Virus record (IMG/VR): IMGVR_UViG_3300035698_003942
Location: 1 to 21,903 of that record
DNA: 21,903 bases
DNA from: a virus
Strand: one strand, 5' to 3'
A program made the translations under genes and the position numbers. Below, piece by piece: positions 1 to 15,927 of this stretch; position 1 is the first letter of the stretch, and the number at the start of each line of letters is the position of its first letter. Below the pieces are notes generated by a model. That model saw only the letters and a list, made by a program, of their open reading frames with translations. It made no database searches and was not told where the DNA came from.

Positions 1-441
1 AAGAGTGAGACATTAAACGAAAACCTAACAGAAAATGAGCAGTTATTTGTAGAATACTATTTTATTCAATCCAGTGATACATTCGGTAACGGTACTCAAT
101 CTATAATAAGAGCTTTCGGCGAGAAGGAATTTCTTAACAAAGAGGGTAATATAAACTATAATTTAGCTGGCGTTAAAGCACATGAACTGTTAAGAACACC
201 TAAGATATATAAAAAAGGGAGTGAGTATCTTAATAACCAAGGATTTAATGATTCCTCAGTAGATTCCCAACACTCATTTTTAATTAATCAATCTGCGGAC
301 CTACCAGTAAAACAAAGAAGTATTGATATGTATAACAAACTTATGGGTAGATATGAAAAGAACAATACCCAAGTTGGCGATGCAATAGGTAAACTATTAG
401 CAGATACCCAAGACTTAATCGGGACAAGTGAAGCTACTTAA
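1..441 (+). CDS. Terminase small subunit (5'-truncated)
   Basis: An open frame runs in from the left edge, so the start codon is missing; 146 residues are visible. The visible N-terminus reads LTENEQLFVEYY, followed by a stretch like the helix-turn-helix region of small terminases (repeated Asn/Gly, then residues 56-70 ending HELLRTPKIY). A long charged helix with MYNKLMGRYEKNN (110-122) follows, as in phage TerS proteins of the 'LT..q..Fv..Y' type. TerS recognises the packaging site on phage DNA and regulates the large subunit. The 3' end overlaps the GTG start of terL by 14 bases, the usual translationally coupled terS-terL pair. The family call rests on pattern resemblance and position. 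Confidence 0.8.
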   Translation, partial: KSETLNENLTENEQLFVEYYFIQSSDTFGNGTQSIIRAFGEKEFLNKEGNINYNLAGVKAHELLRTPKIYKKGSEYLNNQGFNDSSVDSQHSFLINQSADLPVKQRSIDMYNKLMGRYEKNNTQVGDAIGKLLADTQDLIGTSEAT

Positions 442-2032
442 AAGCTTTAAGATAATAGAACAGCTACAGCTTTGGGATAGCTCAATAGGCCAGTATATCC
501 AATTCAAGCTTTGGCCCAAACAAATAGAGTTTTTAAACCTTATCCTAACTAGCCTAAAAGTCATTATCCTCAAAAAGAGACAGACAGGCATATCTCAGCT
601 AACCGGAGCTGATAGCTTAGTCCAATGTATGTTTAGAGAGAACTTTACTGTATTGATCTTGTCTATCACCGGAGGGGATGCAGTTGAGTATTTGAAGCGT
701 ATTAGAGATATGTATAGGCTTTATAACGGACCTATAAAGAAAGTCAATCCATGTGTCAAAGGCGAAGACGCCGGGGATGAAATGGTGTTTGCGTCCGGGT
801 CTAGGTTGATATCGTTATCAGCACAAAAAGGGCGTGGGCGCACAGGTGATCGGATAATTATAGACGAGGCAGCCTTTATTAATAGCAAACTATCTCATAT
901 CGAGTTAACTGAGGTGCTAAAGGCTATTGAGGCTGTAATAGAAAAAGCTGGTGGCCAGATAATATTAGTGTCTACAGCCAACGGCAGTAATAAGTTCAAA
1001 GAAATGTTCAACGACGCTATGAAAAAAAGGAATAACTATTCATCGTTCTTTTTCAGTTGTTGGGATGACCCTACTTTCACAGGGGAGAAGAGGCAAGGGA
1101 TCATTGACGACTACGGAGAAGATCACGCTAACCAGGAGCACCCACGCACCCACCAAGAGGCGTTCTTATCGTCCGGCTCTCCAAGGTTTGATAAGAAAGC
1201 TTTAGAGTATTATACCCCACTGATAGTTAAGCCGTTATTAATAGGTAACATAACAGAGAATGGTGTTGAGAAGACAGAGCAAGGCGACATACAGTTCTTT
1301 AAAAAGAAAAAGAACAGAGGCCAATATATTATCTTTGCTGATGTAGCCGAAGGTTTGGAGCACGGGGATAGATCAATAGCTAAAGTATTTGATATCGAAA
1401 CCCAAGAGCTAACTGCTGAATGGGCTGGCTTAATCGAACACGGTGAGTTTGGCTCTGTTTTATATTACATGGCTATCCACTACAATAATGCTCATGTAGC
1501 ACCAGAAGCAAATAACCACGGCCACGCATCTATTATCCAGTTAAAGAACGTTCATAACTACCCTGAAATGCTTATCTTTGAATCTAACTTTGTACGCGAG
1601 AAACCAGACGATGACTTTAAGAACCCTGAAAAGCGGTTTGGTTGGCTAACCACAAGCAAGACCAAGAAGATTATTATTGATAACTTAGCGCAGATGTTAA
1701 TCAAACACCTGGTCCCTTATCTCAGCTTTGAAGATATAGAAGAGTTGAAAACATATATCAAAGACAAAGACGGCAAGACTAACGCTGAACGTGGGTACTT
1801 TGACGATAGGGTAATGTGTAGCGCTATAGCTTATTACTTACTACAGTTCTATGAGCTTGTGTTGTACCTCGATTGGCAGAAGTGTACTAACTGCCAATAC
1901 TATAACGAGGACACCCAAACATGCCGAGAGACACAAAGGAAACTTAAAGATAATGATATATGTGTTTTATACCAAGAGGACGAGTTAGAGTTTGACGAGA
2001 AAGAGTTTGCAAAACTAGGTGGTAAGTTATAA
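428..2032 (+). CDS. Terminase large subunit (packaging ATPase/nuclease)
   Basis: This is the DNA-packaging motor that docks on the portal, pumps DNA with ATP and cuts concatemers. The N-terminal ATPase shows a Walker A-like KKRQTGIS at residues 49-56, Walker B RIIIDEAAF at 142-150 (D146, catalytic E147) and a coupling motif VSTAN at 181-185. The C-terminal RNase H-like nuclease shows acidic residues in order: D305 in IIFADVAEG, E360 in VAPEANNHGH, and D459/D460 in YFDDRVM. At 534 residues it is slightly long for the family because of a C-terminal tail with four cysteines (C486, C489, C499, C512; CX2C-X9-C-X12-C) that looks like a small metal-binding knuckle. The GTG start overlaps terS; no better start precedes the ATPase motif. 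Confidence 0.95.
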   Translation: MKLLKSFKIIEQLQLWDSSIGQYIQFKLWPKQIEFLNLILTSLKVIILKKRQTGISQLTGADSLVQCMFRENFTVLILSITGGDAVEYLKRIRDMYRLYNGPIKKVNPCVKGEDAGDEMVFASGSRLISLSAQKGRGRTGDRIIIDEAAFINSKLSHIELTEVLKAIEAVIEKAGGQIILVSTANGSNKFKEMFNDAMKKRNNYSSFFFSCWDDPTFTGEKRQGIIDDYGEDHANQEHPRTHQEAFLSSGSPRFDKKALEYYTPLIVKPLLIGNITENGVEKTEQGDIQFFKKKKNRGQYIIFADVAEGLEHGDRSIAKVFDIETQELTAEWAGLIEHGEFGSVLYYMAIHYNNAHVAPEANNHGHASIIQLKNVHNYPEMLIFESNFVREKPDDDFKNPEKRFGWLTTSKTKKIIIDNLAQMLIKHLVPYLSFEDIEELKTYIKDKDGKTNAERGYFDDRVMCSAIAYYLLQFYELVLYLDWQKCTNCQYYNEDTQTCRETQRKLKDNDICVLYQEDELEFDEKEFAKLGGKL

Positions 2033-2061: not shown

Positions 2062-2205
2062 GTGCCAAAAAAAGAAAAGAACTATGATCCTAACCAAAAG
2101 TATATTGAAGCGTTTACCAGTACCGCATCTATCATTGTCCCTCAAGAAGACCTCTACGATGAAATCAGTATTGACCAATTTATTCAAAAGAAAGCAACAG
2201 ATTGA
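2062..2205 (+). CDS. Small hypothetical protein (47 aa)
   Basis: A short frame starts at GTG 2062, eight bases or so downstream of an AGAGGGGAAC stretch. The same AGGGGAAC-type site precedes the GTG start of the portal gene at 4341, which supports this start. It encodes 47 residues, charged at the N-terminus (MPKKEKNYDPNQKY) and acidic in the middle. No domain is recognised. Its TGA stop (2203-2205) overlaps the TTG start of the GroES-like gene, so it probably also delivers ribosomes to that gene, which lacks a good ribosome binding site of its own. Confidence 0.5.
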   Translation: MPKKEKNYDPNQKYIEAFTSTASIIVPQEDLYDEISIDQFIQKKATD

Positions 2206-2435
2206 AAATCCTAAATAAAAATATATTAATTATAATCAATGACGACAAACAGTTATTTGAAGATGACACCGGCAAATGCCTTGGTAAAGTCTATGGCATA
2301 GGAGAAGATGTTGAGATAAGTATCAAAGTAGGCGAAGAGATATATTTTCATCCATCAAACATAACAGTTATCCCCGGTGAGAAGTGGGACGTAATCACAG
2401 AGTCAAGTGTGATCTGTAAGAAAGAGGATGAATAG
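2202..2435 (+). CDS. GroES-like co-chaperonin, short form
   Basis: This 77-residue protein resembles GroES (about 97 residues) over the beta-barrel: NILIIIND (7-14) matches the first strand, GKVYGIGE (28-35) matches the GxVxAVG strand, IKVGEEIYF (41-49) matches the VKVGDxVLF motif, and ITESSVICK (65-73) matches the terminal 'I.ESDILA' strand. The segment between the first strand and GKV is only about 13 residues and lacks the Ile-Val-Leu mobile-loop tripeptide that binds GroEL in classical GroES. Position directly before a groEL homologue strongly supports the assignment. The start is TTG, overlapping the previous stop; an in-frame stop lies just upstream and no ATG is available. It should be cytoplasmic, acting as lid or partner for the neighbouring chaperonin. 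Confidence 0.75.
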   Translation: MKILNKNILIIINDDKQLFEDDTGKCLGKVYGIGEDVEISIKVGEEIYFHPSNITVIPGEKWDVITESSVICKKEDE

Positions 2436-3986
2436 ATGTCAGAGTTTACGCCAAAGGAATTATATTTTAACAACGAAGCTATCCAACCATTACTAACAGG
2501 AGCAGAGAAGGTTTATAAAGCCGTATCATCTACCTATGGAATAGCCGGGCATTTAGTTGGTTTTGATAGTCCCAACTCAGTGTATCCGCGCTTCTCAAAA
2601 GATGGCGTCAGTGTTTCCCGGCAAATTGCCCTCCCAGATAAGGCTGAGAACATTGGCGCTATGCTACTTATCCAAGCAGCAAACAAACAAGTAAGCGACA
2701 CAGGCGATGGCACAACGCTAACAGTTATCCTTGCTTATGAAATCATCAAAGCAGGTTTAAAGTCTGTTAATTCCGGCGTAAACCCTACAGTATTAAGAAA
2801 TGAGATCAATGAATGTGTAGGCCGAATCATCGAGAAGCTAACCCTGGCGAGTATTAAAGTAACACCAAAACTATTGCACGATGTAGCTATAATCTCATGT
2901 AACAACGATAGTAAGCTAGGTGGCTTAATAGCGGATGCTATCCTTAAAGTTGGTGAGTATGGGGTAGTAACACACGATAAGTCAAAGACGGGGTGCACAT
3001 ACACTGAATATTCAGATGGGTATCAATTCAACTATGGTATAAAATACCAACAGTTTATCACTAACCAACGTAAACAAATTTTAGAGTTAGAAAACCCACT
3101 TGTTATTATTTCAGAGAAACCATTATCTTGGGGGGACGATCTAAACAAATTAGTACAAGCATCAAACAAAAAACCTATTGTTATTATTAACGATGAACTA
3201 AGTGAAGACGGGGAAGCATTCCAAACTATCCTTGAAGCAGCTAAAAAAGGGTTTAGGTTATACGTTATTAAAACAAACATTAATGAACCAATGCGCAGAA
3301 AATATGTATTGGATGATCTAGCAACGTTATGTGGGACTAAAGTTTACACTAAGGGATGGGCTAAGTTTGAAAAGTCTGATTTTGGTACATGCGAAAAGAT
3401 AGTATCAATGCCAAGTAAAACAACTATCATAACTGACAAGGTAGCTCTTCGTAGGATCAAAGAGCTCAAAGTCTCGCTATCAAATACAGACAACGACGCT
3501 GAGAAAGAGTTAATCAAAGAGAGTATTGCCAGACTATCAAACGGTGTAGCTACTATTAGAGTCAGTGGCGCAACTGAAACAGAACAGCTTGAAATATTAG
3601 ACCGTGTAGACGATGCTATCCGTGCCTGTAAGTCAGCACAAGAGGAAGGTGTTATTGATGGTGGTGGCGTAGCGTTATTAAAAACAGCCAATGGGTTTAA
3701 CCAACTTGCACCGGGCTGGAATATAATCCTAGAGGCTATCCAAAAACCTATCGCTAAGTTATTAAGTAATGCTAACCTTAAATCTGACTTAATAGTTGAG
3801 AAGATATTAACAGGTGAGGCCAAAGGATACGATATCTTTTCCGGTGAAACAACCAAGACCTCGATGATAGAAAACAATATCATTGACCCGTTAAAGGTAG
3901 TACGGACAGCGTTAATCAATGCTGTGTCAGTGGCCAGTATTGTACTTCAAACTAATGTTTTAATAACAGATTGTAAAGAGGAATAA
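2436..3986 (+). CDS. groEL: GroEL-like group I chaperonin
   Basis: A 516-residue homologue of GroEL (about 548), a double-ring ATP-driven folding chamber. Equatorial ATP-site motifs are present: RFSKDGVSVSRQIALPD (52-68, equivalent of E. coli D52) and DTGDGTTLTVILA (88-100, equivalent of the essential D87). RVDDAIRA (390-397) carries the equivalent of hydrolytic D398, and DGGGVAL (408-414) follows. The apical domain spans roughly 190-370 and includes GYQFNYG, IVIINDEL and YVLDDLATLCGTKVYT. The intermediate-domain hinge is near 371-405, and the C-terminal equatorial half is 406-516, ending LITDCKEE. The Gly-Gly-Met tail of bacterial GroEL is absent. It starts directly after the GroES-like stop. 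Its place between terminase and portal suggests it folds a phage late protein. Confidence 0.95.
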   Translation: MSEFTPKELYFNNEAIQPLLTGAEKVYKAVSSTYGIAGHLVGFDSPNSVYPRFSKDGVSVSRQIALPDKAENIGAMLLIQAANKQVSDTGDGTTLTVILAYEIIKAGLKSVNSGVNPTVLRNEINECVGRIIEKLTLASIKVTPKLLHDVAIISCNNDSKLGGLIADAILKVGEYGVVTHDKSKTGCTYTEYSDGYQFNYGIKYQQFITNQRKQILELENPLVIISEKPLSWGDDLNKLVQASNKKPIVIINDELSEDGEAFQTILEAAKKGFRLYVIKTNINEPMRRKYVLDDLATLCGTKVYTKGWAKFEKSDFGTCEKIVSMPSKTTIITDKVALRRIKELKVSLSNTDNDAEKELIKESIARLSNGVATIRVSGATETEQLEILDRVDDAIRACKSAQEEGVIDGGGVALLKTANGFNQLAPGWNIILEAIQKPIAKLLSNANLKSDLIVEKILTGEAKGYDIFSGETTKTSMIENNIIDPLKVVRTALINAVSVASIVLQTNVLITDCKEE

Positions 3987-4300
3987 TGATAAAGAGGGAA
4001 GGTGAACAAGCACCGTTATTTTATGGGTACTGCTATTCAGACCCATGTAGATTAGTTACTATATTTTATTTGTGGCCGTTTAATCATGTAATCAAATGGA
4101 CAAGAGAACTTTATTTTTTAATACTGTATTGTAACCCCACGAAAAGAGAACAGCGAGAATTAGATATTGCTTGTAAAATCAGAGAACATTGTAATAAACT
4201 TCATCAAGAAGAAGTTGTGGAACTAAATATAAAATATAGCAATTTATTAATAGAGACTCTTAATAAATGTAACCATAAGGATATACAAAACAACAGTTAA
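3986..4300 (+). CDS. Hypothetical protein following groEL (104 aa)
   Basis: The ATG overlaps the last base of the groEL TAA, with AGAGGA upstream, so it is probably translationally coupled to the chaperonin. The protein has an aromatic, hydrophobic stretch at about residues 22-50 (LVTIFYLWPFNHVIKW, then LYFLILYC) that could be a membrane-associated or amphipathic segment. A Lys/Arg/Glu-rich helical tail with several cysteines follows. No family is recognised. It could be a small membrane-associated phage protein or an accessory to the chaperonin genes; only its co-transcription with groES/groEL is supported. Confidence 0.7.
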   Translation: MIKREGEQAPLFYGYCYSDPCRLVTIFYLWPFNHVIKWTRELYFLILYCNPTKREQRELDIACKIREHCNKLHQEEVVELNIKYSNLLIETLNKCNHKDIQNNS

Positions 4301-7743: not shown

Positions 7744-8556
7744 ATGACAAAATTAGAAGAGTATATTAAACAGGGTATTGTAAAAAAGGAGAAAAATTGG
7801 TATTATTATATTAGTGGTGATAAGAAGACGACTTTAGGTAACTCAGCAACCAAGGCGGCAGAAAAACTTAAACTACTAGAACCCGAAGGTAACCAGTCTG
7901 GTCCTTCAAAAGCTGAGACTTCACAAGTTGAACAATCTCAAAAAACAGAAAAGGCTCTCGGCAAAGAGATAACCTCAACGGAAAGTGAATCTTTTGCAGA
8001 TTTTCTTGGCAAGGTCCAAAAAATTAGCGCAAAGGAAACAGGCAAAAATATAGCGTTTTTTATAAACGGTATAAAAAGCACCTTGATAGATCATCCTGAG
8101 GTTTTAAAATGTCCCCTCTATTTTAGATGGAGAAAAAAGGAAAACATGGTTGATAATGGCGACGGCTACACAAACAGAGGTTATGTAGTTATCTCCAAAA
8201 AGATTATGAAAGAAGCTAACTTTACAATAGATGTATCGCGTGATGATACCCCAAAAGAGGATTATTACACGGTAGGCGATTCGATACTTTGCTGTACTGA
8301 TAAAAAGATTAGAACCAAGAGAAAAGCCGACCAACAGGTTAAAGGCATTCTCAGAGCTAAGAAAAGTAAAGAGCAAAGAAACGAGTTTGCTAAACAACAA
8401 GCCAAAACAGGCGACGTTGACAAAGTTGTAGATAGTTTTGCTAATGTCAACACTGGCGATAGTAAGACAATGAAAAGCAATTTTAAGGGATCAGAAGATT
8501 ACGGAAAGATGATCGAAGAAGCTAAGAAGTCAGCAGGCGAAAGCGACGACTTCTAA
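7744..8556 (+). CDS. Lys-rich hypothetical protein with a 'DDTPK' module
   Basis: 270 residues, preceded by AGGAGG. Residues 1-45 form a small lysine/aromatic N-terminal unit (KKEKNWYYYISGDKKTT), followed by a polar Ser/Glu/Gln linker (50-90). A globular part spans about 95-195 and contains FFINGIKSTLID, CPLYFRWRKKE, GYVVISKK and DVSRDDTPKEDYYTVGDSILCC. A basic, helical, probably disordered tail ends DDF. The globular part, from xxNG to DDTPKxD and the following LxC, recurs in the smaller protein at 8629, so the two are paralogues. Function is unknown; lying between scaffold and decoration/coat genes it is probably a head-associated structural protein. It is the last gene before a terminator. 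Confidence 0.75.
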   Translation: MTKLEEYIKQGIVKKEKNWYYYISGDKKTTLGNSATKAAEKLKLLEPEGNQSGPSKAETSQVEQSQKTEKALGKEITSTESESFADFLGKVQKISAKETGKNIAFFINGIKSTLIDHPEVLKCPLYFRWRKKENMVDNGDGYTNRGYVVISKKIMKEANFTIDVSRDDTPKEDYYTVGDSILCCTDKKIRTKRKADQQVKGILRAKKSKEQRNEFAKQQAKTGDVDKVVDSFANVNTGDSKTMKSNFKGSEDYGKMIEEAKKSAGESDDF

Positions 8557-8585: not shown

Positions 8586-8609
8586 GGCAGTTTAACGACT
8601 GCCTTTTTT
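8586..8609 (+). terminator. Rho-independent terminator
   Basis: A six-base-pair stem GGCAGT (8586-8591) pairs with ACTGCC (8598-8603) around a six-base TTAACG loop and is followed directly by six T residues (8604-8609). Weaker A/G-T pairing could extend the stem outward. It separates the packaging/portal/scaffold block from the decoration/coat block. No obvious promoter fits in the 19 bases before the next start, so it may be a partial terminator that tunes expression. Confidence 0.85.
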
Positions 8610-8628
8610 GTTGCATGGAAGGAGAATT

Positions 8629-8859
8629 ATGTCAGTTAAAACAGCCATTATTGTTAATGGCAAAGAAAGCAAAGACAATCCTAACTTGCGCTTATGTAGG
8701 GAAAATAAGATACCAGAAGGTTATTTACCTGTATCAAAAAAAGAGTCAAAAGGCTTGATTGGTTTAGGGAAAGATGACACACCAAAAAAAGATATTCTTA
8801 CATCAGGCAAATTAGTCCTTTGTATGAAAAAAGCTAAAAAAAAGAAAGGGGATAAATAA
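8629..8859 (+). CDS. Small 'DDTPK' module protein, paralogue of the preceding gene
   Basis: 76 residues from ATG 8629, which has GGAAGGAG directly upstream; an in-frame ATG at 8608 lies inside the terminator T-tract neighbourhood and is a poorer choice. The protein contains IIVNGKES, YLPVSKKESKG, GKDDTPKKDIL and LVLCMKKAKKKK. In the same order, these match the globular part of the protein at 7744 (FFINGIKS, YVVISKKIMKE, SRDDTPKEDYY, ILCCTDKK). It therefore looks like a stand-alone copy of that module with a basic tail. Function is unknown; it stands two bases ahead of the decoration-like gene pair and is probably a capsid-associated protein. Confidence 0.7.
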   Translation: MSVKTAIIVNGKESKDNPNLRLCRENKIPEGYLPVSKKESKGLIGLGKDDTPKKDILTSGKLVLCMKKAKKKKGDK

Positions 8860-8861
8860 TC

Positions 8862-9377
8862 ATGGCTAATGCAAATTTACCAAATGGGTTTACTTTATTC
8901 TCTAATGACGCAGTTGTTATCAAATACCTAGTGGCTAACGCTGATTCTTTAAAAGCTAATGATACAGTTTATTTAGATTCAAGTGGCTACGCATCAGACA
9001 CAGCCTCTAAGATAGCTTTGGGTGTAGCTCAGAGTGATATTATAGACGGTTACACAGGTGCTATTAACGCAACCGCAGCGACCGCTTCTTACGATTACAT
9101 TTATGTAAACGTTAATACCAATTCTGTCTATACAGCGCAGATTAGTACAGGAGCTTTAACTAGCCCATACACTACCAAATCAAGTGCAGCATCTTATGAT
9201 GAAGCAGGAAGCGCAGGAGTTCAATATATTAATGCAGCAGCTCACTCTCACGATCTTTGGAAAGTGGTCGGGTATGCTACAGAATATAAGGACGGTTCAG
9301 AATCAGCAGCAGGAAATTACCAAAAAGTATATTGCAAGTTGAACTCAGCGGCATGTGCTTTTGGCACGATAGCATAA
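8862..9377 (+). CDS. Capsid decoration-like protein, copy 1
   Basis: A 171-residue Ala/Ser/Thr-rich, probably all-beta protein beginning MANANLPNGFTLFSND. It includes TLGV/ALGVAQSDIIDGYTGAINATA and ends YQKVYCKLN. Its position immediately upstream of the coat gene and its small beta-rich nature match head decoration/stabilisation proteins, although no named family is certain. It is colinear, without gaps, with the next gene (about three quarters identical by eye). It lacks a signal peptide, unlike the later fibre-block proteins. RBS GAAAGGGGAT precedes the start. Confidence 0.7.
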   Translation: MANANLPNGFTLFSNDAVVIKYLVANADSLKANDTVYLDSSGYASDTASKIALGVAQSDIIDGYTGAINATAATASYDYIYVNVNTNSVYTAQISTGALTSPYTTKSSAASYDEAGSAGVQYINAAAHSHDLWKVVGYATEYKDGSESAAGNYQKVYCKLNSAACAFGTIA

Positions 9378-9396: not shown

Positions 9397-9912
9397 ATGG
9401 CTAATGCAAATTTACCAAGAGGTTTTACATTATTTTCTAACGATGCAATCGTTATTAAATATCTAGCAGCAGACGGAGAATCACTAGCAGCAGGCGACAC
9501 AGTTTACATGAACTCTGACGGGTATGCTGGCGACACAGCAACAGACCCAACTCTAGGTGTAGCGATGAGCGACATCATAGACGGATATACCGGAGCGATT
9601 AACGCAACAGCCGCAAGTGCATCTTATGATTATATCTATGTAAATATCAATATCAATTCTATTTACACAGCACAAATCAGCACAGGCGCGCTAACAAGTC
9701 CTTACACAACTAGATCAGCAGCCGCAGCTTATGACGAGGCTGGCGATTCAGGTGTTCAATACATAAATGCAGCAGCATCTGATAATGACACATGGAGATG
9801 TGTAGGTTACGCGACAGAGTATAAAGAAGGGGCAGAATCAGTAGCAGGAGTTTATCAGAAAGTATATTGCAAGCTTAACCCGCTTGAATGTATTTTAGGA
9901 ACAATAGCATAA
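9397..9912 (+). CDS. Capsid decoration-like protein, copy 2
   Basis: Tandem paralogue of the preceding gene with exactly the same length (171 residues) and no gaps in alignment. The best-conserved parts are the N-terminus (MANANLPxGFTLFSNDA), the centre (SDIIDGYTGAINATA) and the segment AQISTGALTSPYTT. Differences cluster at residues 24-60 and in the last 50, with two extra cysteine-context changes (RCVGYATEY, LECILG). It is probably a second capsid decoration protein, or a minor subunit with a distinct surface. RBS AAAGGAG lies upstream and the coat gene starts 23 bases after its stop. Confidence 0.7.
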   Translation: MANANLPRGFTLFSNDAIVIKYLAADGESLAAGDTVYMNSDGYAGDTATDPTLGVAMSDIIDGYTGAINATAASASYDYIYVNININSIYTAQISTGALTSPYTTRSAAAAYDEAGDSGVQYINAAASDNDTWRCVGYATEYKEGAESVAGVYQKVYCKLNPLECILGTIA

Positions 9913-9935: not shown

Positions 9936-10850
9936 ATGGCTACAATGTTTAGTACAATGTTTAACAAGACAGATATTGATATTTCAAAAAATGTCAAGAT
10001 TCTAACAACAGCAATCTATAAAGGGTTCGATAGCGAGTGGAAACAAGTTATTGAAAAAGAGACTACAGACTTAAAGATCAATAAGAGAATGCCTTATGAG
10101 GGCATCGGAGCAGCACCAGAGAAAGCAGAGGGAGCAGACGCACAATCTAGCAGACTCTATGAAGGATATCAGGAGACTGTTAAGTTAGCCACCTTTGTTT
10201 ATGAGTTACCTATGACTTGGGAGCACAGAAAATATGCTACTAAGAGCGCAAAATTCATTGAACAGGTTGGCGAATATATGGCTCGTTCTGTTAACTTACG
10301 TTATGAGTACACAGGTATTTCACCGATAGACAACGGCTTTACTGCTGCTGCTTACGCAGGTGGAGATACTAAGGCTTATTTTGCATCAGATCACGCATGG
10401 AAATCAGGCGGTACTTTTGACAATCTATTAACAGCAGCAGACTTGAGCAAAACAAGTTTAGAATCTGCTTTGATCGAGATTGCACAAGCAACTCAAGAGT
10501 TGAGTATCCCAGCCAAGATTATCCCTGGCAAGATAACAATTTCTAGCGACAATATTTTTGTATTGCCTGAATTGTTAAAAACTGTTCAAGACCCTGAATC
10601 TGCTAACAACACCATTAATGCTATTAAGAGTGAATTTTCTTTGAAAAAGAATCTTAATCATTACATGGTTGATACTGATTCATGGGTAATTGACGGACAA
10701 AACCCATCAAGAGTTTTATACGAATCTCAGGGACCAAGCTTTTCACAGTATATGGTAGATTCTAGCAAGAACCTTGTTGAAACTGGGATGTGCGCAATCG
10801 CACCTGGTTTTCACAGTATGGTTAATAGTTACGGAAACGACGGATCATAA
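9936..10850 (+). CDS. Major capsid protein (HK97-fold type)
   Basis: 304 residues. The N-terminal part has a charged arm (KILTTAIYKGFDSEWKQVIE). A segment with KRMPYEGIGAAPEKAEGADA follows, and then the strand/helix pair TVKLATFVYELPMTWEHRKY and the long spine-like helix FIEQVGEYMARSVNLRYEY. Downstream, SLESALIEIAQATQELSIPAKIIPGKITIS and NIFVLPELLKTVQDPESANN are typical of HK97-fold major heads of the Mu gpT-like or related type, where 'A-x-I-P-x-x-I-x-I-S' precedes a Leu-rich helix. It has no long N-terminal delta domain, in keeping with a separate scaffold gene. Strong GAAAGGAG RBS. It is followed by an intercistronic hairpin. Confidence 0.88.
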   Translation: MATMFSTMFNKTDIDISKNVKILTTAIYKGFDSEWKQVIEKETTDLKINKRMPYEGIGAAPEKAEGADAQSSRLYEGYQETVKLATFVYELPMTWEHRKYATKSAKFIEQVGEYMARSVNLRYEYTGISPIDNGFTAAAYAGGDTKAYFASDHAWKSGGTFDNLLTAADLSKTSLESALIEIAQATQELSIPAKIIPGKITISSDNIFVLPELLKTVQDPESANNTINAIKSEFSLKKNLNHYMVDTDSWVIDGQNPSRVLYESQGPSFSQYMVDSSKNLVETGMCAIAPGFHSMVNSYGNDGS

Positions 10851-12732: not shown

Positions 12733-15700
12733 ATGAAAAAGCTATTATTAATAAGTTTATTACTAATAGCCAATTTGTTTGCAGTTGGTCCTTACCGATA
12801 TAGCGACAGCTCAGAAAGTTGGTTTTATTCTACCCGTACAGAGGGAATAACTATCTCTAAAAACGGTTATGTTGGGATAGACACCACAACCCCATCGTAT
12901 GAATTAGATGTTGCTGGTACTTGCCAAGCCACTAAATTTGTTGGATCAGGCGCAGAAATAACAGATATCACAGTTACAGAGGTTATTGTTTCAGAGGATA
13001 TCATAGTAGTAAATATTGATGCGTCAGGAATAATTACAGCCAATAAATTCACAGACAGCACCGCTATCATCACAGGTGGCGATATCTCAGGAACTACGGT
13101 TGACGTTACCTATGCTGAAATAGACGACCTTTACGCTACTAACCTTGAATCTGATATGGATGGTACAGGCTACGATATTATTATTGAAGATATCAACGCA
13201 GGGGGGACAGTTACAGCCGATACCAAACTGTATTCAGCCTTAATAGAGGGGGTAAACGCTAAATTTACTAACCTAGAGCAAGACTTAGACGGCACAAGCT
13301 TTGATCTAATAATTGCAGATATTAACGCGTCAGGCACTATCACAGCCAATAAGTTTACTGATGGTATAGCTATTATTACTGACGGGGATATATCAGGTAC
13401 TACAGTTGACGTAACAGTAGCAGAGGTAGACGATCTATACGCGACCAACTTAGAAGCCGATATGGACGGTACCGGGTTTACAATCACTACTAATACCCTT
13501 GACACAACCGATCTTAAAGCCACCAATCTTGAAAGAGATCTTGACGGTACAGGACAAGATTTAATTATTGCGGATATTAACGCGAGCGGGACTGTAACGG
13601 CTAATAAATTTGTTGGCAATATAGAATCTAACTACGTTCAAATGAATGATCTTTCTGGCTCAACATATACCTCATTAGAAGATTGGATCAATAACTCTCA
13701 ATCAGCAGGAAAAATTAGTGGGTTTGAACTTACTGACAATGATGACGGGACGATAGATATTACAGAAGGCACCGGGATATTAAAAACATCTAACTCAGAT
13801 ATTGGGGAAACAATAATGTTTGATCTTGCAGCAAGTACAAACGTTGTTTTAACAGATGAATCAATTAATTATATTTTAGTAGATTATAATTCTGGTATTC
13901 CTATATATGAAGTAGACACAGACATTGCAAATGTTGACTTTAACACGGAGTTTGTTATTGGATATTGTTATCTTAAAAATTCCGTTAGTGCTGATATTTT
14001 AGAAGCAGGAAATAAAATACCTAATTATAATAATAATAATTGCGCTAGGTTATTCTATCGTGGGATTGAGCGAATGACCGGAGCATCTATAGGAGAGAAA
14101 GCAACATTATATTTAACCTCTACAGAGGGAGTATTTTATTTAGGTAATTGCATTGTTACCACTAACTCACAAGATACAGAAACTGATGGTATAGAAAGTT
14201 ATTATTATTATGATGGATCAGACTGGCAAGTAAGCTCAGACAGGACTATTATAGACAATACTTATTATAACGATATAACATCTGGGCTTTCCGAGCTTAC
14301 TGCAAATAGATACGGGGTACATTGGATTTATGTATGTCTTGAGGAAGATATTAATGTAGTTTTTGGGCAAGGTAATTATACGCTAACACAGGCTAATAAT
14401 GCAGAACCGCCAGCCTCTATACCTGATTATCTAAGTAAATATGCGATCCTTGCAGCAAAAGTAATTGTTAAAAAATCAGCAACAAGTTTTATTTCGATAC
14501 AGTCAGCTTATACAACTAAATTTACACCGGGGAGTGCTAATAATCATAATGATTTATCAGGGTTACAGGGTGGGACCACAGACCAATATTATCACCTAAC
14601 AAGCACAGAGGACGGTTATTATACTGGCGCAACCGCTCAATCTGTTTTGACTACCGCTTCCCCTGCTTTTGTAGGTGTATCATTATCGGGCACGATCACC
14701 GCTAATAAACTAACTGATGGTACGGCAATAATTGAGGATGGCGATATATCCGGCACTACGGTTGACGCGACGGTAGTCGAGGTTGACGATCTTTACGCCA
14801 CTAATTTAGAGGCAGATTTAGACGGCACAGATTATGATTTAATAATAGCTGACTTAACTGTTATTAACCTTGAATCTGATATGGATGGCACGGGATATGA
14901 TATTACTATCGAGGACATTAATTCGGGGGGGACAGTAACCGCAGATACCAAACTATATTCAGCATTAGTAGAATGTACCAATTTAAAAGCAACTAATTTA
15001 GAATTAAGCCTAGACGGCACAGGGTTTGATATTACAGCAGATACTTTTATAGGTGCTCTAACAGGAACGGCCACTACGGCCAATAACGCAGACACTCTTG
15101 ATCTACACGATACAAGTTATTTTACTAACGCCAGCAACATAGCATCAGGAACATTAGACAAAGCATATATAGATAGCGAAGTAGTAACACAGACCTATTC
15201 AAGCGCAGTAACGTTGAGTAGTGTTGATAATGTATTTTATGGCGACGGCTCTAATTTAACGGGTGGGGGATCAGGAACAGTAACCGACAACTATTATAAT
15301 GCTGTAACATTAAATAGTGTTGATAATGTCTTTTATGGGGATGGCAGTAATTTAACGGGTGGGGGGGCAGGCACAGTAACAGATAATTATTCAACTGCCG
15401 TAACATTAAGTAACGTGGCAAATGTGTTTTATGGGGATGGAAGCAACCTAACAAATCTAACCGATACAGGAATGAAGTTCGGACAAGTAAACGGCTATTC
15501 AGCACAAGCGTATTCTGCTGACAGGCACCACGCAACAAGGGTGCTTTGTCCGTCAATATGTACTATAACAAAGCTTATTTTCCAAGTAGGGAACACTAAC
15601 GCTTTTAATATAAAATGGGCGCTATATGCTGATAACGCTGGACAGCCAGGAGCATTACTTGCTCAAACTACAGCAATGAATGTAGGCGCTACTGATGATT

Positions 15701-15927
15701 ATTTCCAAAAAGGTGCTACTTTTACATCAGCTTATACTTGTGCTGCCGATACAATATATTGGATAGCCTGGTGTGCTGATTCTGCCCCTAATTTAAAATA
15801 TGATACAAATTTAAGTACATCACCGGGCGGTAAATATAAAGATGGAAGTAACTACGCTGGGTTCCCTGTCAGCCCTTGGGGGGCGTCAACTGGTGATTAT
15901 CATTCAGAATTTACTATGATATTTTAA
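12733..15927 (+). CDS. Large repeat-rich tail-fibre/adhesin protein with signal peptide
   Basis: 1064 residues. A Sec signal peptide MKKLLLISLLLIANLFA is cleaved near A17. A fibre-start motif GYVGIDTTTPSYELDVAGT (about 45-63), like the 'GIGTTSP..LDV' entry of phage and adhesin shafts, follows. Residues 102-330 and 656-770 hold repeats built on TANKxTDxxAII, GDISGTTVD, DDLYATNLE and DMDGTGYDI. Residues 330-640 contain a middle fibre domain ending NNHNDLSGLQGGTTDQYYHL, a motif frequent in tail fibres. Three 32-residue repeats (NVFYGDGSNLTGGG) occupy 825-911. A C-terminal beta domain (about 915-1064; IKWALYADNAGQPGALLAQTT, DTIYWIAWCAD) looks like a carbohydrate-binding-type jelly roll. Likely receptor-binding fibre or secreted adhesin. 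The signal peptide is unusual for a tailed-phage fibre. Confidence 0.85.
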   Translation: MKKLLLISLLLIANLFAVGPYRYSDSSESWFYSTRTEGITISKNGYVGIDTTTPSYELDVAGTCQATKFVGSGAEITDITVTEVIVSEDIIVVNIDASGIITANKFTDSTAIITGGDISGTTVDVTYAEIDDLYATNLESDMDGTGYDIIIEDINAGGTVTADTKLYSALIEGVNAKFTNLEQDLDGTSFDLIIADINASGTITANKFTDGIAIITDGDISGTTVDVTVAEVDDLYATNLEADMDGTGFTITTNTLDTTDLKATNLERDLDGTGQDLIIADINASGTVTANKFVGNIESNYVQMNDLSGSTYTSLEDWINNSQSAGKISGFELTDNDDGTIDITEGTGILKTSNSDIGETIMFDLAASTNVVLTDESINYILVDYNSGIPIYEVDTDIANVDFNTEFVIGYCYLKNSVSADILEAGNKIPNYNNNNCARLFYRGIERMTGASIGEKATLYLTSTEGVFYLGNCIVTTNSQDTETDGIESYYYYDGSDWQVSSDRTIIDNTYYNDITSGLSELTANRYGVHWIYVCLEEDINVVFGQGNYTLTQANNAEPPASIPDYLSKYAILAAKVIVKKSATSFISIQSAYTTKFTPGSANNHNDLSGLQGGTTDQYYHLTSTEDGYYTGATAQSVLTTASPAFVGVSLSGTITANKLTDGTAIIEDGDISGTTVDATVVEVDDLYATNLEADLDGTDYDLIIADLTVINLESDMDGTGYDITIEDINSGGTVTADTKLYSALVECTNLKATNLELSLDGTGFDITADTFIGALTGTATTANNADTLDLHDTSYFTNASNIASGTLDKAYIDSEVVTQTYSSAVTLSSVDNVFYGDGSNLTGGGSGTVTDNYYNAVTLNSVDNVFYGDGSNLTGGGAGTVTDNYSTAVTLSNVANVFYGDGSNLTNLTDTGMKFGQVNGYSAQAYSADRHHATRVLCPSICTITKLIFQVGNTNAFNIKWALYADNAGQPGALLAQTTAMNVGATDDYFQKGATFTSAYTCAADTIYWIAWCADSAPNLKYDTNLSTSPGGKYKDGSNYAGFPVSPWGASTGDYHSEFTMIF
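13036..14832 (+). repeat. Three 45-codon fibre repeats (A1-A3)
   Basis: Three copies of a 45-residue unit, T-A-N-K-[FL]-T-D followed by AII, GDISGTTVD, DDLYATNLE and [ML]DGT, start at 13036, 13342 and 14698 (copies 135 bases long). The first two are 306 bases apart. The third sits downstream of the middle fibre domain. A second conserved unit (DMDGTGYDI to TKLYSAL) is at 13153-13248 and 14878-14973. Confidence 0.8.
15205..15460 (+). repeat. 96-bp (32-codon) tandem repeat in fibre gene
   Basis: Three direct copies start at 15205, 15301 and 15397, exactly 96 bases apart; the third breaks off after the NVFYGDGSNLT segment. Each encodes AVTL-x-x-V-x-NVFYGDGSNLT, and the first two continue with GGG and GTVTDNY. 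The repeats lie just before the C-terminal beta domain. Confidence 0.9.

Follow-up and report, generated by a model that had tools for sequence, protein, structure and literature searches.

Why would a phage carry the genes for a chaperonin and a co-chaperonin between those for its packaging motor and its portal? The question is raised by an IMG/VR virus record of 21,903 bases, a linear fragment that was analyzed as a whole and is referred to here as the window. The source is an uncultured, probably short-tailed phage. Few clients of phage chaperonins are known, and a complete pair between packaging motor and portal offers a direct and testable link to head assembly. The explanation preferred here, which is considered moderately probable, is that a GroES/GroEL folding cage is made by the phage from its packaging/head operon, with head-assembly proteins as the most likely clients.

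Gene Content of the Window

The open reading frames of the plus strand run in the order terS-like, terL, 47-aa ORF, GroES-like, groEL, 104-aa ORF, and 724-aa ORF, followed by the head and tail genes (Table 1). The 724-aa protein was identified as the portal using hhalign with a portal family of 44 members, among them the portal of Podoviridae sp. ct52p938 (94%, E 1e-7, 310 columns); it has no match in Pfam and no strong match in PHROG. The first-pass annotation had placed a GroES/GroEL pair between terminase and portal. This order is upheld by the PHROG assignment of terL and by the portal alignment, but the 47-aa and 104-aa ORFs intervene. No relatives of the 47-aa ORF were found in a comparison with related contigs, and the same holds for the 104-aa ORF, which has no Pfam match and resembles just one uncharacterized PHROG family, weakly.

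The gene order terL–portal–scaffold–coat fits that of ct52p938, with the coat placed by position and size only. The putative coat protein has no family match in Pfam, PHROG, or hhalign. Relatives of the 288-aa head-closure-like protein are encoded by the TerL-related contigs L155 and L162. A tape-measure-like gene was not recognized in the 22 kb of the linear fragment.

Several other features of the head and tail region were recorded. Two tandem 171-aa paralogues (8862–9377 and 9397–9912; phmmer E about 1e-82 to each other) lie just upstream of the putative coat gene and are possibly decoration or head-fiber proteins. The ORFs at 7744–8556 (270 aa) and 8608–8859 (83 aa) have a related segment in common (phmmer E about 7e-5), and this likeness suggests a partial gene duplication. 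A putative fiber of 1064 aa with many internal repeats of type TNLEADMDGTGYDIIIEDINAGGTVTAD is encoded at 12733–15927.

Table 1. Features of the chaperonin locus and of the surrounding packaging, head, and tail genes in the window
Feature	Coordinates	Strand	Remarks
Terminase small subunit-like ORF	1–441	+	Truncated at the record's 5′ end; PHROG 51 terS, E 2.2e-6; Pfam Terminase_2, E 0.001, below cut-off
terL (terminase large subunit)	428–2032	+	GTG start; PHROG 2 terL, E 1.6e-32
47-aa ORF, no assigned function	2062–2205	+	GTG start, preceded by AGAGGGGAA; stop overlaps groES start (TTGA)
GroES/Cpn10-like co-chaperonin, 77 aa	2202–2435	+	TTG start; short mobile loop, no roof loop
GroEL/Cpn60 chaperonin, 516 aa	2436–3986	+	D56, D91, and D393 kept; no GGM tail
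104-aa ORF, no assigned function	3986–4300	+	ATG overlaps groEL stop (TAATG); AGAGG motif upstream
Portal protein, 724 aa	4341–6515	+	GTG start, preceded by CGAGGGGAA; identified by hhalign
Putative scaffold-like charged coiled ORF, 318 aa	6777–7733	+	From position and composition only
Probable major coat protein, 304 aa; candidate client	9936–10850	+	From position and size only
Tail accessory/head-closure-like protein, 288 aa	18242–19108	+	PHROG 2941 virion structural, E 4e-4; PHROG 460 head closure Hc2, E 0.005

Identity of the Chaperonin

The product of groEL (516 aa) is a full-length but diverged member of the group I chaperonins. Pfam Cpn60_TCP1 matches residues 28–511 with 146.6 bits against a cut-off of 34.3 (E 1.3e-42). 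The best PHROG is 5725, chaperonin groEL (E 3.4e-101), and GroEL chains in the PDB are matched with E values down to 3e-79. The ATP-site residues that had been picked out in the first-pass annotation are all present, in the motifs K55-D56-G57, G90-D91-G92-T93-T94, and R390-V391-D392-D393. The ATPase aspartates D56, D91, and D393 correspond to D52, D87, and D398 of E. coli GroEL, and all three are intact in a residue map that uses standard E. coli numbering (initiator Met as residue 1).

The same alignment was used for positions that bear on the ring and on its contact with a lid. In SR1, the E. coli mutant that forms single rings, the altered positions are R452, E461, S463, and V464. The phage GroEL differs from E. 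coli GroEL at all four (A for R452, K for E461, D for S463, and L for V464), which hints at a single ring. Apical lid-contact positions are also altered, Y203 to Q and V264 to E (E. coli numbering). At 35% identity, the SR1 and apical substitutions are suggestive only.

Gene Junctions and Translation Signals

The TAG stop codon of the groES-like gene (2433–2435) directly adjoins the ATG of groEL (2436) on the same strand, with no gap between them, and the two genes abut as the first reading had them. The groEL ATG has an AGAGGA Shine–Dalgarno motif. From the 47-aa ORF to the 104-aa ORF, Shine–Dalgarno motifs accompany the junctions TTGA, TAG-ATG, and TAATG, and every junction either has a translation signal or overlaps with one. 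In codon usage, groEL matches the remainder of the window (z 0.9), and base composition is uniform. The flanking genes are phage genes, in keeping with the proposed phage-encoded pair in a packaging/head operon. The GroES/GroEL pair is probably coproduced with the packaging and head proteins.

Phage Ancestry of GroEL

No close relative of GroEL was found. When GroEL, TerL, and portal were scanned as single sequences against viral contigs, nothing close was returned; profile scans did yield matches. Bacterial genomes were scanned using a 3-row GroEL profile, a profile from 8 diverse GroELs being too loose. Among the matches listed, identity to any sequence is at most 38–39%.

In the phylogenetic tree, GroEL is located outside the clade of all bacterial sequences and together with elemovirus-like phages, with support of 98/95. 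A tree in which GroEL was forced with the bacteria was rejected in the AU test (p 0.015). The tree had been proposed as a check on the first-pass annotation, and its outcome is that GroEL is of phage rather than host ancestry. A tree in which GroEL was forced out of the elemovirus-like group gave p 0.09 and was not rejected. The GroEL branch is very long, and long branches meet in the elemovirus-like group. The exact sister of GroEL is unsure because of this branch length and of the p value for exclusion from the group.

The phage ancestry bears on an alternative explanation, in which a host groESL was fused to a phage contig through mis-assembly or contamination. Public records do contain host groESL labeled as phage. 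However, GroEL in the window reaches no more than about 38% identity with anything found and falls outside the bacterial clade, its gene junctions overlap by bases, and composition and codon usage are uniform. A host fragment or an assembly chimera was rejected on these grounds, and the probability of such an artifact is close to negligible.

Identity of the GroES-like Protein

The assignment of the 77-aa protein as a GroES is weak and marginal by sequence alone. The Pfam Cpn10 score of 15.8 bits is below the gathering cut-off of 21.1 (E 0.015), and an HMM of 64 viral Cpn10 sequences, from which the window sequence was excluded, gave E 0.12. An earlier HMM value of 6e-7 was discarded because that HMM had been trained with the window sequence included. 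No match was obtained using tblastn in GenBank phages or phmmer in the PDB. In an hhalign comparison with 27 viral Cpn10 rows, the protein scored 45% (E 2e-4) and two control proteins of the window scored 0.2%. When all were compared against all with hhalign, it was the top window protein for the GroES profile, at 24% versus 4% for the next protein.

A structural model was obtained using AlphaFold2 with 24 viral GroES rows. The pLDDT is 86.4 and the pTM is 0.77; confidence is low at residues 17–20, in the loop, and nowhere else. Foldseek matched this model with Thermus Cpn10 (TM 0.74) and T4 gp31 (TM 0.75), both with a probability of 1.00. An AlphaFold model built from the single sequence was of poor quality and had no structural matches. 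Because the viral GroES rows bias the confident model and the unaided model failed, a Cpn10 β-barrel fold is likely rather than certain for the 77-aa protein. The fold model, the hhalign controls, and the gapless junction with groEL support the GroES identity given at first reading, but the lid is highly reduced and marginal by sequence, a point that had been underexamined.

The mobile-loop segment has 16 residues, 8 fewer than the 24 of E. coli GroES and of most viral GroES proteins. The canonical hydrophobic IVL-type tripeptide (IVL/IIV) is absent from this loop, in which L18-F19 is a possible remnant only. The roof segment has 9 residues versus 17, and the elemovirus-like lids have 8. T4 gp31, the lid for the T4 coat protein gp23, is also without roof loops, an absence that may help it to take in this 56-kDa protein, and its mobile loop is longer (PMC6318259). 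Since the loop of the 77-aa protein is without the canonical motif, and that of gp31 is longer and not shorter, the binding of the lid to GroEL could be weak or absent.

The GroES of contig L030 (4456–4891) is apparently split across two reading frames, probably by a sequencing error. This short GroES was rejected as a parallel for the short lid because its reading frame is apparently broken.

The reduction of the lid raises the alternative that GroEL functions without one, as in the giant phages EL, OBP, and AR9, and that the 77-aa protein is a Cpn10-derived β-barrel with another role, for example in the virion or in regulation. The subthreshold Pfam score, the shortened mobile loop, and the changed lid-contact face (V264 to E and Y203 to Q) are consistent with this explanation, as are the three characterized phage chaperonins, from EL, OBP, and AR9, that work without needing a lid (PMC9598537). 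It is nevertheless quite unlikely. A GroES gene is found within 300 bp of GroEL in 54 of the 80 closest IMG/VR relatives, among the matches listed. The 77-aa gene directly adjoins groEL, the best structural matches of its product are co-chaperonins, and the changes in lid and ring may have coevolved.

In the preferred explanation of a phage-made folding cage, the GroEL subunits would assemble into a seven-fold ring, perhaps a single one, that forms an ATP-driven folding chamber. The GroES-like protein would form a roofless, short-looped, seven-fold lid matched to this ring, as the shortened mobile loop and the apical changes at V264 and Y203 may indicate. As a GroES/GroEL machine, such a pair would be one of the most diverged, with a lid among the shortest seen here, and could be used to ask how little lid suffices and whether the pair is orthogonal to the host system.

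Distribution of Phage Chaperonins

GroEL is matched by 236 GenBank phage records, a few of which are mislabeled bacterial DNA, and a GroEL relative is encoded by at least 588 IMG/VR stretches. One GenBank “phage”, Acinetobacter phage MD-2021a (L006, CAKLQH020000021), has bacterial chromosome genes around a host groESL and is probably mislabeled. Both partners are present in the short-tailed isolates of the Flavobacterium elemoviruses and the Cellulophaga calleviruses and in dozens of IMG/VR contigs. Many viral chaperonins have been reported from marine genomes, and among the genomes of the phi38:1 group there are 36 that encode GroEL (PMC5332604). GroES is a core gene in HTVC023P-type podophages (PMC9599517). 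The possession of both partners by a short-tailed phage, which the first-pass annotation had regarded as much less usual, is hence not exceptional.

The pair is located elsewhere than in the head operon in elemoviruses, calleviruses, and immuto, for example, beside the DNA polymerase or in accessory regions. From these locations, it follows that chaperonin genes are not generally tied to the head operon.

The Interval between terL and Portal

The gap between terL and portal is 2.3 kb in the window and holds groES–groEL. The gap is 0–1.27 kb in 36 of the 38 contigs with a homologous TerL and a downstream portal, some of which are near-duplicates. The other two long gaps, 3.1 kb in L143 and 3.5 kb in L158, each hold a tandem double-Cpn10 gene. 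The encoded proteins have 224 aa (L143:4453–5127) and 233 aa (L158:9831–10532), with Pfam E values of 1.4e-26 and 3.9e-22, respectively. A further scan for tandem-Cpn10 genes returned only L143 and L158, plus one single-domain contig. The two Cpn10 domains in each protein constitute a Cpn20-like architecture in uncultured phage contigs.

GroEL is encoded by none of the 50 TerL-related contigs tested. Among 50 other GroEL contigs, many of them short, a search with selected families found terminase or portal in few and never adjoining groEL. In the elemovirus-like phages, a second Cpn10-like gene of about 180–200 aa lies upstream of terL–portal, either immediately adjacent or with one small gene in between. 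This second GroES-like gene (L002:9306–9848, elemovirus gp32, with homologues in L053, L069, L076–L080, L086, and L088) is additional to the groEL–groES pair.

Co-chaperonin genes occur near terL and portal in three separate settings, and the exact order terL–groES–groEL–portal occurs once. The terL–portal junction is a recurrent site for co-chaperonin genes in this TerL lineage, which gives the location firmer support than was apparent at first reading. The exact order was not seen in the other phages examined; the ISME J survey of viral chaperonins by Marine et al. (2017) may report it. The position is that of one fragmentary genome. It suggests a folding machine that is dedicated to the virus head, and the recurrence of co-chaperonin genes at the junction suggests the same link with head assembly.

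A more specific proposal can be put forward tentatively. The junction may be a chaperonin slot of a short-tailed lineage, occupied either by a lid alone (the tandem form) or by a full miniaturized pair. The latter would probably be single-ringed, with a roofless, short-looped lid, and would provide an orthogonal cage for portal or coat that is independent of the host GroEL.

Candidate Clients of the Chaperonin

In the favored explanation of a dedicated cage, the pair would be made along with terminase, portal, and probably coat, presumably late in infection. Given this production, the most likely clients would be head-assembly proteins, with coat or portal first; the first-pass annotation had proposed the coat, a fiber, or the portal. 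A point against a role in the head is that the tested client of the phage EL chaperonin is an endolysin and not a head protein (PMC9598537).

The pair could instead be a general-purpose chaperonin that adds folding capacity, either for many phage proteins or in hosts that are short of GroEL, with its place in the operon reflecting no more than strong late expression. The chaperonins of EL, OBP, and AR9 fold endolysin with little specificity (PMC9598537, PMC5934643), and the pairs of other phages adjoin DNA polymerase or sit in accessory regions, both of which agree with this explanation. The recurrence of co-chaperonin genes at the terL–portal junction of this TerL lineage argues against it, and a general-purpose role is regarded as rather unlikely.

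A role directed at the host was also considered, in which a modified GroEL or lid would titrate or redirect the host chaperonin or block a defense system. Moonlighting chaperonins are known, the apical face of the phage GroEL is strongly diverged, and its branch is very long. However, the intact ATPase residues and the cognate lid point to a genuine cycle of protein folding, and the genes are located among head genes, which makes a host-directed role very improbable.

Comparison with Known Systems

In the GroEL tree, subject to the long-branch reservation given above, the closest group is formed by the elemovirus pair (NC_062741, from a short-tailed phage of about 60 kb) and its marine relatives L053, L069, L076–L080, L086, and L088. 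The elemovirus-like GroES is short and roofless, as is the lid of the window. In the marine relatives, terL and portal are further along the same strand as the pair, which is roughly 3–5 kb upstream of terL, and the second Cpn10-like gene is just before terL. In the elemovirus isolate, the pair is on the strand opposite to the structural genes. The elemovirus-like order is groEL–groES, whereas that of the window is groES–groEL, and the GroEL proteins are 35% identical.

The calleviruses (Cellulophaga phi38:1 and Calle_1) also carry a phage pair, in the same order of Cpn10 and then GroEL as in the window. Unlike the pair of the window, the callevirus pair is located by DNA polymerase and exonuclease genes and has a small gene between the partners, and its GroEL forms a separate deep branch.

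The giant phages EL, OBP, and AR9 encode GroEL homologues with intact ATPase residues, like that of the window. The OBP and AR9 chaperonins are single rings. None of the three phages has a co-chaperonin, whereas the window has a GroES-like gene. The EL GroEL covers only 28% of the window protein in tblastn, at 33% identity, and lies on a separate, very long branch of the tree. T4 gp31 is a phage lid without roof loops, as the lid of the window is, but gp31 relies on the GroEL of the host, whereas the phage of the window encodes its own ring.

The terL–portal interval itself is shared with L143 and L158, which have a homologous TerL and a co-chaperonin in the same place. These two contigs differ from the window in having two Cpn10 domains per protein and no GroEL on their 13–15 kb. 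The closest TerL in GenBank phages is that of Podoviridae sp. ct52p938 (MW202803; 29% identity, 7e-35). Its terL–portal–coat order is that of the window, and one 105-aa gene is present where the window has groES–groEL.
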